Positions 7,519 to 59,928 of a stretch of 64,000 nucleotides of DNA are shown here, piece after piece (position 1 is the first letter of the stretch; each line of letters starts with the position of its first letter). Origin of the DNA: Flavobacterium aquatile LMG 4008 = ATCC 11947 (GTDB lineage: Bacteria > Bacteroidota > Bacteroidia > Flavobacteriales > Flavobacteriaceae); assembly GCF_000757385.1 (NCBI RefSeq), contig NZ_JRHH01000006.1, positions 62,001 to 126,000 of the forward strand. Reading direction: 5' to 3'. Under the pieces are notes generated by a model. That model had not been told where the DNA came from and did not search any database. It saw nothing but the letters and a program-made list of their open reading frames with translations. The position numbers and the translations under genes were made by a program.

Positions 7519-8241
7519 CTATTCTTTTGTTGACTTCACAGCTAAGTTATAAATTACTAAACCAAATCCGATTTTGTTAATGGCATCGGCAATGTTGTAA
7601 GCAACATCTACATTTCCTTTTCCTAGTAATCCTGTGTACCAACCGTCGGTTCCTAACATGTATCCTAAAGGATAAATTGCCCAACCAACAAGTACAAACC
7701 AACATAAAATTTTGTGAGCAGACAAAACTTCACCTCCAGCAGCAGCAGCTAATTTGGAAGCTTCTCCCAACCATATTTCATAAACAATAGCAAAGTAAGC
7801 AATTCCAGAAACTAATCCCCAAACCCATGCATTTGTTGGATCTACGGCTTCACCAAAATAACCTGTAACTAACATTACTAATGAATAAATAATCATTTTC
7901 CATAATAATGATTGTTTTGCTCCTGCAACTTTCAGAATTAAATAAAACTCTAAACACATCAATGGAACGGTTAAAACCCAATCAACATAACGGAAAAAAG
8001 TTGGTGATTCTCCAAAGCTTGCCCAATAATCTCTCATGTAGAAATAATGAACCGCTGCAATAAAAGTAATTAAACCAGAAACTAAAACAGAAACACGCCA
8101 CTTTTTATCAAACTGACTAAGAGATAAAAAGAAAAATGCTGATGCAGCCATCATAGCCATGCATCCAATGAAAAATGTAAATCCAACGTAATCTGTTGGT
8201 AGCATTTTCGAAACAAGCGAAATAGATAATAAATTGTTCAT
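7519..8241 (-). CDS. Proteorhodopsin, light-driven proton pump
   Basis: 240 aa, seven transmembrane helices. The pump motif is complete: R84, D87 (proton acceptor), T91 and E98 (proton donor) in RYVDWVLTVPLMCLEF, corresponding to D97/T101/E108 of the reference proteorhodopsin. H65 matches the acceptor-coupled histidine 75. K223 in DAINKIGFG is the retinal Schiff-base lysine and D219 the second counterion. The spectral tuning position is methionine (M95, equivalent to 105), typical of green-absorbing flavobacterial pumps. There is no NDQ sodium-pump or NTQ chloride-pump motif. It is divergent from blh across a 113-nt region with duplicated inverted repeats. Confidence 0.97.
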   Translation of the reverse strand: MNNLLSISLVSKMLPTDYVGFTFFIGCMAMMAASAFFFLSLSQFDKKWRVSVLVSGLITFIAAVHYFYMRDYWASFGESPTFFRYVDWVLTVPLMCLEFYLILKVAGAKQSLLWKMIIYSLVMLVTGYFGEAVDPTNAWVWGLVSGIAYFAIVYEIWLGEASKLAAAAGGEVLSAHKILCWFVLVGWAIYPLGYMLGTDGWYTGLLGKGNVDVAYNIADAINKIGFGLVIYNLAVKSTKE

Positions 8242-8271
8242 AAAAATAAAAATTTAAGTTATTTGTTTAAT

Positions 8272-8298
8272 CAAATTTACAAATGGTTAAACAAACAA
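8272..8298 (-). promoter_or_regulatory. Proteorhodopsin promoter candidate
   Basis: On the minus strand TAAATTTG (8272-8279) fits TAnnTTTG and TTG (8296-8298) lies 16 nt upstream, one short of the usual range. The predicted start is about 8268, inside half-site 8262-8270, a repressor-like position. Confidence 0.55.
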
Positions 8299-8305
8299 AA
8301 TAATT

Positions 8306-8333
8306 TTGTTTAACTTTTTATTATTATCTTTAA
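8306..8333 (+). promoter_or_regulatory. blh promoter candidate
   Basis: TTG (8306-8308), 17 nt, then TATCTTTA (8326-8333), one mismatch from TAnnTTTG. The -33 TTG lies inside one half-site and the -7 box overlaps the next. An alternative exact box, TAATTTTG at 8301-8308, lacks a -33 element. Confidence 0.4.
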
Positions 8334-8354
8334 ACAAAATTTCAAATTAGAAAG

Positions 8355-9239
8355 ATGTCTAAAACAAATAAATTCGCCATAATTTTTAGCTTTTTTGCCT
8401 TATGGATAAATGTGAATTTTTCGCCTAACTATCAACAAGTTATTGGATTTGTAGTAATATTCTTATTTGGAATCTTACATGGAGCAAATGATTTAGCATT
8501 ATTTCAGAAAATTAGCGAAACAAAAAAAAGTATTTCATTAAAAAAATTGACACTGTATTATATAGGAATAGTGATTCTTGGAGCAGTGCTCTTCTACTCC
8601 ATTCCAATTGTGGCTTTACTCCTTTTTATTTTATTCAGTTCTTATCATTTTGGAGAACAACATTGGAATACACTAGAAACAAAAGAAAAGAATAGTTGGA
8701 TTACAATATTTCAAACCATTTATGGATTATTTATATTTTCGTTGCTATTCAGTTTTCATGAAATTGAGGTTGAAAAAATAATTTATCAAATTACTAATAC
8801 TTCAATTCAGCAACTTGAATTTAAGTGGATAACAATTTGCATTGGATTATTGATGATTGCATCCGGAATTAAACTCAACTCAATTTCAGTGAAATTTAAA
8901 TCAGAAGTTGTTGTAAATATCTTTTATCTAATAGTTTTTGCCATCATTTTCAAGACCGCCGATTTAGTTTGGGCGTTTGCAATTTATTTTGTGATTTGGC
9001 ATAGCATTTCATCTATTGAAGAACAAATCAATTATTTGTATGGAAGTTTTACTCTGAAAAATTTTAGAAGTTATTTTATCAGTGCATTTCCGTATTGGAT
9101 TACATCACTCTTAGGAATTTTTATTCTGTACTATATATTTAAGGACAAAGAACTTTTTAATGCCTTATTTTTTTCATTTCTAGCCGCAATTACATTTCCG
9201 CATACTATTATAATTATTAAGATGCAGAATAGTAAATAA
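8355..9239 (+). CDS. blh: Beta-carotene 15,15'-dioxygenase, Brp/Blh family
   Basis: 294 aa, polytopic, with about 8 hydrophobic segments. Histidines that bind iron in this family are visible in LHGANDL (near residue 43), YHFGEQHW (near 98-103), and a later WHS motif (IWHSISS). Blh cleaves beta-carotene symmetrically into two retinals, the chromophore of the adjacent proteorhodopsin. The gene is divergent from the pump gene and shares its operator region, so the two are likely co-regulated. Length is within the family range. It ends next to the dnaK terminator. Confidence 0.93.
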   Translation: MSKTNKFAIIFSFFALWINVNFSPNYQQVIGFVVIFLFGILHGANDLALFQKISETKKSISLKKLTLYYIGIVILGAVLFYSIPIVALLLFILFSSYHFGEQHWNTLETKEKNSWITIFQTIYGLFIFSLLFSFHEIEVEKIIYQITNTSIQQLEFKWITICIGLLMIASGIKLNSISVKFKSEVVVNIFYLIVFAIIFKTADLVWAFAIYFVIWHSISSIEEQINYLYGSFTLKNFRSYFISAFPYWITSLLGIFILYYIFKDKELFNALFFSFLAAITFPHTIIIIKMQNSK

Positions 9240-44806: not shown

Positions 44807-46099
44807 TTATCTATAATATTTAATACTTTCTCCATTATAATATCCAATACCATTATTCATAGTTAGAAATATAATTTCATTTTCACTTATAAATTCAAAT
44901 TTAGTAACATGTAAATGAGTACAATAACCACTTTCAGATTGAACGTAACACGTTAATTTTGGAATAAAAAATAGTTTTTTAGAAAAAGTACAACCAGAAT
45001 TATTTAAAGTATAGAATCCTTTTGAGCTAAAGAAATAAAGTTTATTATCATATTTATTGAATGAAATTGGACCTAATTTATTGATTTCATTTTCTGTTAA
45101 TATTTTTCCTCTTAATTCTCTGTCTTTGTTTTTAAAACCCATCAAGTCTCTCTCAAAAGCAATTTTATATTTTTCATCTTCAAGAATTCTTTGGTCAAAG
45201 CATGATCTATAATAATTATTTTCTTTTTTTGAAACTTTTACAATTGTTCCATCAACGTAATAATTAAAATCATTTTCGGTGGCATAAATCATAGTATGAC
45301 CACCACCACTTGACGTCATGAATAAATCATCTGAATTATTATAGGCAACTCCTTTTGTTACACTTGAAATACCTAAATTAAATGGATATTTGTAAATAGT
45401 ATCTCTTTCTCTTACTTTAATTATTTCTGGATATTTTTCCTTTAATTGTGTGAAATAGTCATTTCTATCTTTATATTTTACTCCATCATCTAGTCTCAAC
45501 CAATCATCATAAATAAATTCTTTTTTATTCAAATCAAAAAAGCATACATTTCCACCAAATTCACCTTCATCATAGGCAAACCAAATAAAATCCATTTTGT
45601 CCAAGTAAATGAAATCTGGTTCTATTAATAGTGTTCCTGTGTATTTTTCCCTAACTTTTCCATAAAAATTGGTTTTCTTTTTTGGAATATAATCTGCTTT
45701 ATTAAAGTGAATAGATTTGTTTGAATAAATTATGTATTCATCTTTTGAATTTATTAAAATAGAAAATATTTTAGCATCAATTTTCTCAATTTGTTTAATT
45801 TTTTGTTTTTTATTTAAAATAAATATTTTACCGTCTTTACTTCCAAATATTAACTCATTATTGGATTTTTTTGCTACTGCGGAAATATTTTTTTCAATTA
45901 ATTTGAAACTATCATCTTTCAAATTAATTACTATTAAATCATTATTTCTAGCTATAGCATATATATTATTTTTTACCGAAACAAAATCTTTATATTCTAA
46001 ATTCAATAAATTTATTTGATTATTTACATTACTTTTACTTTGAGAACTACCTTGAGCAATTCCAAAAAAACAAAACAGATATATTGCGTAGAATTTCAT
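44807..46099 (-). CDS. Secreted protein of unknown function, propeller-like
   Basis: 430 aa with a signal peptide (1-20, ending SSQS). The mature sequence has repeated short units with [D/N]-rich turns and hydrophobic strands (KNNIYAIARNNDLIVINLKDDS, KSNNELIFGSKDGKIFILNKK, FSILINSKDEYIIYSNKS), which suggests a beta-propeller. A cysteine-containing region (CTFSKKLFF, CYVQSESGYC) is near the end. No family recognised. It is more AT-rich than neighbours and flanked by gene-free DNA, hinting at a strain-specific gene. Confidence 0.55.
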   Translation of the reverse strand: MKFYAIYLFCFFGIAQGSSQSKSNVNNQINLLNLEYKDFVSVKNNIYAIARNNDLIVINLKDDSFKLIEKNISAVAKKSNNELIFGSKDGKIFILNKKQKIKQIEKIDAKIFSILINSKDEYIIYSNKSIHFNKADYIPKKKTNFYGKVREKYTGTLLIEPDFIYLDKMDFIWFAYDEGEFGGNVCFFDLNKKEFIYDDWLRLDDGVKYKDRNDYFTQLKEKYPEIIKVRERDTIYKYPFNLGISSVTKGVAYNNSDDLFMTSSGGGHTMIYATENDFNYYVDGTIVKVSKKENNYYRSCFDQRILEDEKYKIAFERDLMGFKNKDRELRGKILTENEINKLGPISFNKYDNKLYFFSSKGFYTLNNSGCTFSKKLFFIPKLTCYVQSESGYCTHLHVTKFEFISENEIIFLTMNNGIGYYNGESIKYYR

Positions 46100-58524: not shown

Positions 58525-59928
58525 TTACACGTGTAACGATCTATTATCAGTTGCTGCTAACGCTGCTTCTTTTATTGCTTCTGCAAATGTTGGGTGTGCA
58601 TGAGACATTCTAGAAATATCTTCAGCAGATGCTCTAAATTCCATAGCTGTTACGGCTTCGGCTATTAAATCGGCGCAACGAGCACCAATCATGTGAACAC
58701 CTAAAACTTCATCTGTTTTTGCATCGGCTAAGATTTTTACAAATCCATCTGTATCACTACTTGCTCTTGCTCTTCCTAATGCTTTGAATGGAAAACTTCC
58801 AGCTTTATATTCTACTCCATCTGCTTTTAATTGCTCTTCTGTTTTACCGACAGCGGCAACTTCTGGCCAAGTATAAACTACTCCAGGAATCAAGTTATAA
58901 TCAATATGTGGCTTTTGACCAGCCAAAATTTCGGCAACCATTGCTCCTTCTTCTTCGGCTTTGTGTGCTAACATTGCTCCTCGAACTACATCACCAATTG
59001 CGTAAATATTTGAAACATTAGTCTGCAAATGATCGTTTACTTCTACCATTCCTCTGTCAGTGATTTTTACACCAGCTTTATCTGCCGAAAGTCCGTCTGT
59101 ATAAGGACGACGACCAACAGAAACCAACGAATAATCTCCTTCTAAAGTGATGGTTTCACCTTTAGCATTTTCGGCTTGAACAGTAACAACTTTACCTTTT
59201 CTTTCCACCGATTTTACTTTGTGAGAAACGTAGAATTTCATTCCTTGTTTTTTCAACACTTTGGTTAATTCTTTAGACAAACCAGCATCCATTCCAGGAA
59301 TAATTCGGTCCATGAATTCAACAACCGAAACTTGTGCACCTAATCTTAAATACACTTGCCCCAATTCAATTCCGATAACGCCACCACCAATAATTACTAA
59401 ATGCTTAGGAACTTCTGGTAATTTTAGTGCTTCGGTTGAAGTAATAATTCTTTCTTTATCTATTTTGATAAAAGGAAGATTTGATGGTTTAGAACCAGTT
59501 GCGATAATAATATTTTTAGCTTCAATAACTTCAGATGAACCGTCAGCTTTTGTAACTTTTACATGAGTGGCATCTTCAAATGAACCTAATCCTTCGTAAA
59601 CAGTGATTTTATTTTTATCCATTAAAAATTTAACACCACCCGAAGTTTGGTCTACAACTGCTTGCTTGCGAGCAATCATTTTCTCAAGATTTACTTTTAC
59701 TTCACCCGAAACTTCAATTCCGTGATCGGCAAAATGCTGTAATTCTTCGTAATGATGTGATGATGCCAAAAGCGCTTTTGATGGAATACAACCCACATTT
59801 AAGCAAGTTCCACCAAGCGTTGAATATTTTTCTATAATTGCGGTTTTAAAACCTAATTGTGCACAACGAATCGCCGAAACATATCCGCCTGGACCAGAAC
59901 CTATAATGACTACGTCAAATGAACTCAT
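58525..59928 (-). CDS. lpdA: Dihydrolipoyl dehydrogenase
   Basis: 467 aa flavoprotein. FAD-binding GSGPGGY (10-16), redox-active C42/C47 (GGTCLNVGCIPSK), NAD-binding GGGVIGIELGQVY, the FAD site TNVSNIYAIGDV, and the C-terminal His-Glu dyad in HAHPTFAEAIKEAAL. It is the E3 component of 2-oxo-acid dehydrogenase complexes and of the glycine cleavage system. It is not beside the E1/E2 genes, so it is likely shared by several complexes. Promoter at 59963-59991. Confidence 0.97.
   Translation of the reverse strand: MSSFDVVIIGSGPGGYVSAIRCAQLGFKTAIIEKYSTLGGTCLNVGCIPSKALLASSHHYEELQHFADHGIEVSGEVKVNLEKMIARKQAVVDQTSGGVKFLMDKNKITVYEGLGSFEDATHVKVTKADGSSEVIEAKNIIIATGSKPSNLPFIKIDKERIITSTEALKLPEVPKHLVIIGGGVIGIELGQVYLRLGAQVSVVEFMDRIIPGMDAGLSKELTKVLKKQGMKFYVSHKVKSVERKGKVVTVQAENAKGETITLEGDYSLVSVGRRPYTDGLSADKAGVKITDRGMVEVNDHLQTNVSNIYAIGDVVRGAMLAHKAEEEGAMVAEILAGQKPHIDYNLIPGVVYTWPEVAAVGKTEEQLKADGVEYKAGSFPFKALGRARASSDTDGFVKILADAKTDEVLGVHMIGARCADLIAEAVTAMEFRASAEDISRMSHAHPTFAEAIKEAALAATDNRSLHV

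Follow-up and report, generated by a model that had tools for sequence, protein, structure and literature searches.

A conserved spaced palindrome at proteorhodopsin, carotenoid and photolyase genes of Flavobacteriaceae and its probable CarH-like regulator

Paired palindromes between the proteorhodopsin and blh genes

The window analyzed here is a stretch of 64,000 nucleotides of the Flavobacterium aquatile genome (G000:C6:62001-126000), in which the proteorhodopsin (PR) gene and blh lie on opposite strands on either side of two spaced palindromes. The promoter elements in the following list were assigned by the consensus TTG/TAnnTTTG.

7519-8241, minus strand: PR gene, 240 aa (PF01036), putative target
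8262-8295, no strand: palindrome 1, TTTGTTTAA-N16-TTAAACAAA, putative operator, exact match, over the PR -7 box and probable start site
8272-8279, minus strand: -7 box TAAATTTG of the PR promoter (assigned by the consensus), within palindrome 1; its end precedes the right arm by 1 bp on the PR strand
8296-8298, minus strand: candidate -33 TTG of the PR promoter, 16 bp from the -7 box (inferred from the consensus)
8305-8338, no strand: palindrome 2, putative operator with equal arms and spacer length, exact match, over the blh promoter
8306-8308, plus strand: candidate -33 TTG of the blh promoter, within the left arm of palindrome 2 (inferred)
8325-8332, plus strand: weak match to the -7 box, TATCTTTA, in the blh promoter, sharing bases with the right arm of palindrome 2 (inferred)
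8355-9239, plus strand: blh, beta-carotene 15,15'-dioxygenase, 294 aa (PF15461, BCD), putative target

The arrangement TTTGTTTAA-N16-TTAAACAAA occurs exactly twice in the window, at 8262-8295 and 8305-8338 with an offset of 43 bp, and the paired palindromes described between PR and blh in an earlier note on this DNA are confirmed as genuine. The two spacers, which that note called the same, agree in their length of 16 bp but differ in sequence. The PR -7 box had been placed correctly; the blh box TATCTTTA begins at 8325 instead of 8326, and its final letter is A vs. G in the consensus.

Occurrence of the element in the F. aquatile genome

Throughout the F. aquatile genome, TTGTTTAA-N16-TTAAACAA was found exactly seven times, and the reversed pattern not once. 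Exact 8-bp arms separated by spacers of 2-30 bp gave 10 sites, seven of which have the N16 spacer, vs. one site for the reversed control, and 9-bp arms with up to two mismatches gave 18 sites vs. four. No excess was obtained in this genome for 8-bp arms at up to two mismatches (38 sites vs. 42 for the reversed control), thus only exact or near-exact sites carry weight here. Within the window, there are four matches at up to three mismatches, two of them exact, vs. 1.5 expected. The additional matches at 45790-45823 and 59248-59281, at two and three mismatches, are at chance level.

The seven exact sites are located at PR, blh, crtI-crtB, a photolyase operon, folE, and two loci encoding FAS1 (fasciclin) proteins. 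The photolyase operon encodes DUF2805 and DUF2452 proteins, a flavin reductase, a cryptochrome/photolyase, and a photolyase-related protein, and the crtI-crtB locus includes a further gene without a Pfam match that we read as crtZ. Sites with one mismatch are present at a second photolyase operon (SRPBCC-SDR-photolyase), at one of the FAS1 loci 120 bp from its exact site, between transketolase and tgt, and at C3:373974, where no light-related neighbor was recognized among the neighbors listed. A site with two mismatches overlaps the start of a gene that adjoins crtI and encodes a protein with MerR and B12-binding domains. The gene folE (GTP cyclohydrolase I, L008:4675-5343) has its exact site just upstream, and a link to the pterin/folate antenna cofactors of photolyases is possible. 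Why the FAS1 genes at the element (L007:3682-4686 and L009:3804-4391) should be regulated by light is unexplained.

Conservation upstream of proteorhodopsin genes

PF01036 was found in 60 of 249 genomes of the family, with a total of 63 rhodopsin hits. Three divergent rhodopsins, two loci at contig ends (L040 and L086), and a weak hit in G045 were excluded, leaving 57 PR upstream regions that include the F. aquatile locus, a 47%-identical rhodopsin (L087), and an interrupted one (L088); the duplicates L089-L092 were counted once. The N16 element with up to two mismatches lies 20-75 bp before the PR gene at 34 of the 57 loci, that of F. aquatile included, and is exact at 14. The outcome that had been named in advance as refuting, absence of the palindrome upstream of homologous rhodopsins, is therefore not what is observed. 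Anywhere in the 460 bp upstream, the element is present at 35 of the 57 loci vs. 5 in the reversed sequence. An unsupervised search for two 5-mers with a gap of 0-24 bp in the same 57 regions recovered the palindrome: the top inverted dyad was GTTTA-N18-TAAAC, present in 30 regions, and the best dyad of any kind occurred in 35 regions, vs. 6 for the best one after one mononucleotide shuffle. The spacing is equally distinct. With up to one mismatch, the PR loci contain 36 sites at N16 and none or one at every other spacing from 6 to 26 bp, and when the left arm alone served as an anchor (71 anchors), a right arm followed at N16 in 31 cases, and no other spacing between 8 and 24 bp yielded more than two. 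The palindromes are thus genuine, widely conserved sites.

Two sites with up to two mismatches are found at 14 of the 57 PR loci, including that of F. aquatile. The arrangement, called unusual in the earlier note, is not so in this family. The sites of a pair are offset by 34-35 bp in six cases, by 43-45 bp in six, by 40 bp once, and by 20 bp once. The offset of 43 bp was reported correctly but belongs to one of two recurring classes, which are about one helical turn apart and, as we infer, would keep the rotational phase. In L030, the two sites upstream of PR, at the 20-bp offset, have overlapping arms.

Two broader distributions were considered and rejected. The element is not general to rhodopsins, as the divergent rhodopsins L027-L029 have no N16 site under four mismatches in the stretch scanned. 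Nor is it phylum-wide: exact sites occur in 47 of 395 genomes and are concentrated, as counted by eye per rank, in the genus of F. aquatile (22 of 24) and the rest of the family (12 of 17), with 0 of 8 in the rest of the order, 12 of 49 in the rest of the class, and 1 of 297 elsewhere in the phylum.

Target genes and promoter register across the family

We read the neighbors of 74 of the at least 75 exact sites in 36 other genomes, the omitted one being the PR site of G034. Among the matches listed, 49 of the 74 sites have a neighbor of a labeled type and 25 have none; the types are FAS1a (16 sites), crtI with crtB (14), photolyase (7), SRPBCC (5), FAS1b (5), and folE (4). The labels derive from the F. 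aquatile loci, thus other kinds of targets are undercounted. Unlabeled neighbors include a protein with a fatty-acid-desaturase fold, UbiA prenyltransferases, a DUF2867 protein, and a pair of a TetR_C_23 protein with an ABC1 kinase that is divergent from a gene read, by reading only, as HtpG. It appears that the probable CarH-like regulator also controls pigment and DNA-repair genes in this family.

Several details of these neighborhoods are recorded in their own right. FAS1 genes are the commonest labeled neighbors, at 21 of the 74 sites (L123-L195, among the matches listed). Sites between genes of the TetR_C_23-type/ABC1 kinase pair and an HtpG-like gene recur in three genomes (L130, L168, and L195, with Pfam on L168 only), and MsrA precedes folE in one tested case. 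Small proteins of ~70 aa are encoded close behind exact sites at L160:2287-2508, L159:2236-2460, and L178:2285-2497; the one in L160 has no Pfam match, and in L178 a DUF2805 gene belongs to the same gene run.

Forty-four of the 74 sites have a recognized first gene and could be oriented. The sequence TAnnTTTG starts at +16, abutting the right arm, in 21 of the 44 and in none of the 44 in the reverse orientation. The same register is found in 12 of 14 oriented crtI sites and also at crtI of F. aquatile, so that, judged by this promoter consensus, the CarH trait of an operator overlapping a promoter element of carotenoid genes is present. At PR, TAnnTTT[G/A] is shifted by one base to +15, as in F. 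aquatile, in 23 of 34 sites. An overlap of TAnnTTTG with the left arm (9 of 44 sites) says little because the reverse orientation also gives 6.

A CarH-like protein encoded beside crtI-crtB

The F. aquatile genome has three PF13411 (MerR_1) hits, one in a protein of 299 aa and the others in short frames of 115 and 99 aa. The gene for the long protein (L010:4401-5300) lies beside crtI-crtB and has the element at both ends, exact on the crtI side and with two mismatches at its own start. The N-terminal winged helix of MerR type is present (PF13411, E 2.5e-14, residues 9-74), as is a C-terminal cobalamin-binding fold of a helical bundle plus Rossmann domain, supported by PF02607 (B12-binding_2, E 1e-07) and by a fold match. 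The closest solved structures by sequence are those of Thermus LitR/CarH. The model of the orthologue L196 (86% identical, mean pLDDT 87) matches the cobalamin domain of Thermus CarH with Z 20.7 and 2.2 A over 193 residues; photocobilins are close (Z 19.4), and MetH, AppA, and AerR follow with Z of 17 to 15.

The adenosyl-capping motif Wx9EH is met by the F. aquatile protein. In an alignment of 43 rows (42 distinct, with one duplicate), its Trp and Glu are present in 43 of 43 and the final His in 39 of 43; every row likewise has the Glu and the His of ExHxxG. The published definition of CarH, as given in the available part of its source, requires both Wx9EH and the full motif ExHx2Gx41SxV/Tx22-27GG (PMC8156234). 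The full motif is met in 0 of the 43 rows. The F. aquatile protein keeps ExHx2G and the Thr, with SxV/T reading YMT and GG reading GR; over the 43 rows, the Ser is replaced by Tyr, Phe, Cys, or Asn, and the second Gly is Arg, Tyr, Lys, or His in 34. The residue after the Trp is, in Thermus CarH, the His of the light-state bis-His link according to the same partially available source (PMC8156234), and in 41 of the 43 rows it is Gln. Because Wx9EH and ExHxxG are kept and the full B12 motif is incomplete, we call the protein CarH-like and withhold membership. The trait of the CarA type, absence of Wx9EH, is not met, as the motif is present. As an observation on the clade, the retention of the cobalt-ligand and adenosyl-cap motifs with loss of the Ser and second Gly possibly reflects an altered choice of cobamide.

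The arms contain the published CarH half-site TnnACA, and this trait is met: an inverted pair at 24 bp is present in 36 of the 57 PR upstream regions, and in 41 sites that were selected for arm similarity the fixed letters reach frequencies of 0.98-1.00 (right arm) and 0.88-1.00 (left arm). The sites of Thermus and Bacillus CarH are described, in the portion of the source at hand, as tandem 11-bp repeats nnnnTnnACAn (PMC9304148). This trait is not met, a same-strand TnnACA pair 11 bp apart being present in 0 of the 57 regions, and a classical CarH operator of 11-bp direct repeats is rejected. The half-site is thus the same as that of CarH but the layout is different. Direct TnnACA pairs at other distances were found at 12 bp in 7 regions, at 20 bp in 8, and at 10 bp in 2, with at most 2 after one shuffle, which the 12- and 20-bp pairs exceed.

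Co-occurrence of the element and the CarH-like protein

Over the 249 genomes of the family, an exact site is present in 161 of the 186 genomes with a close CarH-like protein, in 2 of the 17 with only a weak homologue, and in 3 of the 46 without one (close vs. none, Fisher p 2e-25, not corrected for relatedness); 25 of the 186 have the close protein and no exact site. The split between close and weak was set at the gap of ~1e-47 to 1e-60 after the list had been viewed. Of the protein-free genomes, 25 have a completeness of 90% or more, and no exact site occurs in any of these; the three with a site are 81%, 73%, and 87% complete. Among these three, G079 has five sites, two of which are at DUF2805/flavin reductase and FAS1 genes, the site of G147 is at PR-blh, and that of G149 has no labeled neighbor; a missing contig is plausible for G079 and G147 because their sites adjoin genes of these types. 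A real exception is G025, a complete genome with four exact sites and a weak CarH homologue only; at least two of its sites (L264, L268, L270, and L272) are by FAS1 genes and one adjoins a protein judged TetR-like by eye. Several protein-free genomes are small, and the co-occurrence was not corrected for phylogeny.

At the PR loci, a site with up to two mismatches is present at 33 of the 47 with the CarH-like protein vs. 2 of the 10 without it (p 0.005; p 0.07 at one mismatch and p 0.01 at three). The two loci with a site and without the protein are in genomes that are 73% and 81% complete, and G056 has both the protein and an exact PR site. Fourteen of the 47 loci with the protein have no site at up to two mismatches, which counts against the explanation that we prefer.

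The element also accompanies the gene for the CarH-like protein. Among 66 named carH loci, 46 have the N16 site with up to two mismatches in front of carH, and the start codon is often covered by its right arm; other spacings gave 17 (N17), 11 (N25), and 11 (N26). The carH-crtI junction has N16 in 31 of the 66 and any other spacing in at most 9, and with up to one mismatch these loci contain 45 sites at N16 and 16 at N17. The regulator of MerR/CarH type suggested in the earlier note finds its candidate here, as the one long MerR protein has a B12-binding domain, is flanked by the element, and co-occurs with it.

A cobalamin adenosyltransferase is encoded in F. aquatile and in 182 of the 186 genomes with the CarH-like protein vs. 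33 of the 46 without it. This distribution fits a user of adenosylcobalamin; small genomes confound the comparison. A PF01923 adenosyltransferase is missing from four genomes that encode the protein, two of which are 99% complete.

Proposed regulatory mechanism and alternatives

We propose, and consider it probable, that a CarH-like protein uses the palindromes as operators and acts as the dark repressor of a light regulon. The sequences establish the element and its conservation, its target genes, its register with the -7 box, the fact that it co-occurs with the protein, and, for the protein itself, the predicted fold and the key residues; binding, repression, the cofactor, and the response to light are inferred. 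The incomplete CarH signature, the absence of 11-bp direct repeats, the genomes and PR loci that have the protein but no site, the sites without a labeled neighbor, G025, and the genomes lacking a PF01923 adenosyltransferase weigh against the proposal. In the dark, the CarH-like protein, encoded elsewhere in the genome beside crtI-crtB and composed of MerR-type DNA-binding and cobalamin-type domains, would bind as a dimer or tetramer, probably with adenosylcobalamin, to the inverted half-sites TGTnnA...TnnACA. It would thereby cover the -7 box and the probable start site and shut off PR and blh. In the light, breakage of the cofactor bond would cause the oligomer to fall apart, so that PR and blh would be expressed, together with the carotenoid, photolyase, pterin (folE), and FAS1 genes; the regulator would probably also repress itself. 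The suggestion that one regulator, possibly light- or cobalamin-responsive, controls both the pump and the supply of its chromophore is supported, with binding, light response, and B12 dependence remaining inferences.

The main rival, unlikely in our assessment, is that the CarH-like protein binds the sites without direct use of B12 or light and answers a partner or stress, as do M. xanthus CarA and class II LitR. It draws on the loss of part of the published B12 motif, on the Gln that replaces the bis-His histidine in 41 of 43 rows, on the four genomes that have the protein without a PF01923 adenosyltransferase, and on a class II LitR with a LOV photoreceptor reported for Pseudomonas mendocina in the accessible text of PMC9758184. 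The conservation of the Wx9EH and ExHxxG residues in 43 of 43 rows (final His of Wx9EH in 39) is difficult to account for unless a corrinoid is bound beneath an adenosyl cap, and the B12 independence of CarA is, in the part of the review available, largely put down to its missing Wx9EH (PMC8156234).

A second possibility, in our view quite improbable, is that the same protein is not a dark repressor and instead activates transcription in response to light or a ligand, in the way of classical MerR regulators. According to the available part of PMC8156234, proteins of the MerR family can act as repressors or as activators, bound to (pseudo)palindromes that lie in a promoter or overlap one. In the loci studied here, the -7 box directly adjoins the right arm, which probably also covers the start site, and at carH the element frequently extends onto the start codon; both positions fit occlusion. 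The gap of 16 bp between the candidate promoter elements at PR and blh is also not overlong relative to the normal spacing.

Binding of the element by a different, unlinked transcription factor, with only an indirect link to the CarH-like gene, is in our view likewise quite improbable; G025, with four exact sites and a weak homologue only, speaks for it. It is opposed by the element, which flanks the F. aquatile carH gene on both sides and precedes carH in 46 of 66 named loci, by a half-site that fits the published CarH consensus, and by the co-occurrence of protein and element over 249 genomes. Finally, coincidental AT-rich sequence or a mere promoter consensus, to which the AT-rich flanking DNA and the lack of excess of the 8-bp-arm pattern at up to two mismatches might point, is made very unlikely by the counts (exact sites seven vs. 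none reversed in F. aquatile, and in 166 of 249 family genomes vs. 10, counted by eye, with the reversed pattern), by the fixed N16 spacing and the recurrent gene set, and was rejected on the reversed-pattern controls, the conservation at PR loci, and the unsupervised dyad search, so that we give it almost no credence.

A wider proposal is that a clade of CarH-like photoreceptors with an inverted-repeat operator serves the whole family as its master light switch and turns on a single regulon of PR, retinal, carotenoids, photolyases, pterin synthesis, and FAS1 proteins. The cobamide pocket of this clade would be remodeled, perhaps for tail-off binding or for a different cobamide. We regard the chances of this as evenly balanced. 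To our knowledge, the coupling of pump expression to light in PR-carrying flavobacteria is an open question, which becomes accessible to testing with the operator defined, the regulator named, and the targets listed. If the proposal is true, phototrophy and photoprotection would be under one B12-type switch and both linked to the supply of vitamin B12, relatives of CarH would be able to use an inverted-repeat operator, and there would be a regulatory clue for FAS1-domain proteins.

Comparison with known regulatory systems

In the open-licence papers to which the literature search was confined, we recognized no CarH-type regulator, operator, or regulon at PR or blh. What is already known, as far as the accessible parts of the papers go, is a MerR regulator beside crt genes in two PR genomes, one of them with the crt cluster under its control. 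A MerR-family regulator beside crt genes is described for Sediminicola sp. YIK13 and Flavobacterium sp. TH167, and the TH167 paper of this pair places crtI, crtB, and crtZ under its control (PMC4732338, PMC5887021, both available in part). These regulators are probably orthologous to the CarH-like protein, and the F. aurantiibacter TH167 protein is among its homologue matches. The available portions of both papers name no operator, cobalamin domain, or link to PR-blh (PMC4732338, PMC5887021). MliR of Bizionia argentinensis is likewise a MerR-like regulator of a marine flavobacterium; the partial text of its description compares it with TnrA/GlnR and MerR, concerns iron homeostasis, and mentions no cobalamin domain, and on that description, without a sequence comparison, it was set aside (PMC9478572).

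The system resembles Myxococcus xanthus CarA/CarH at P crt, in which MerR-type repressors control light-induced carotenogenesis. The CarA site was proposed to consist of two inverted repeats, and two dimers bind cooperatively; the same source favors direct repeats for CarA too, according to the sections of it available (PMC9304148). CarA lacks Wx9EH and is countered by CarS, whereas the CarH-like protein has Wx9EH, and its repeats occupy the -35 region and the DNA upstream of it, whereas the site described here lies over the -7 box.

Another of the closest known systems is Thermus thermophilus CarH/LitR, which shares the MerR-type and cobalamin-binding domains, Wx9EH, ExHxxG, the TnnACA half-site, and the position of the operator on the promoter, with a fold match of Z 20.7; the gene lies beside carotenoid genes here, as in the described CarH systems. 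The Thermus operator consists, according to the text available of PMC9304148, of three tandem 11-bp direct repeats, whereas the half-sites described here are inverted and 24 bp apart. Unlike Thermus CarH, the flavobacterial protein has lost the Ser of SxV/T, the second Gly of GG, and the bis-His histidine, and its putative sites are found also at proteorhodopsin, blh, and photolyase genes.
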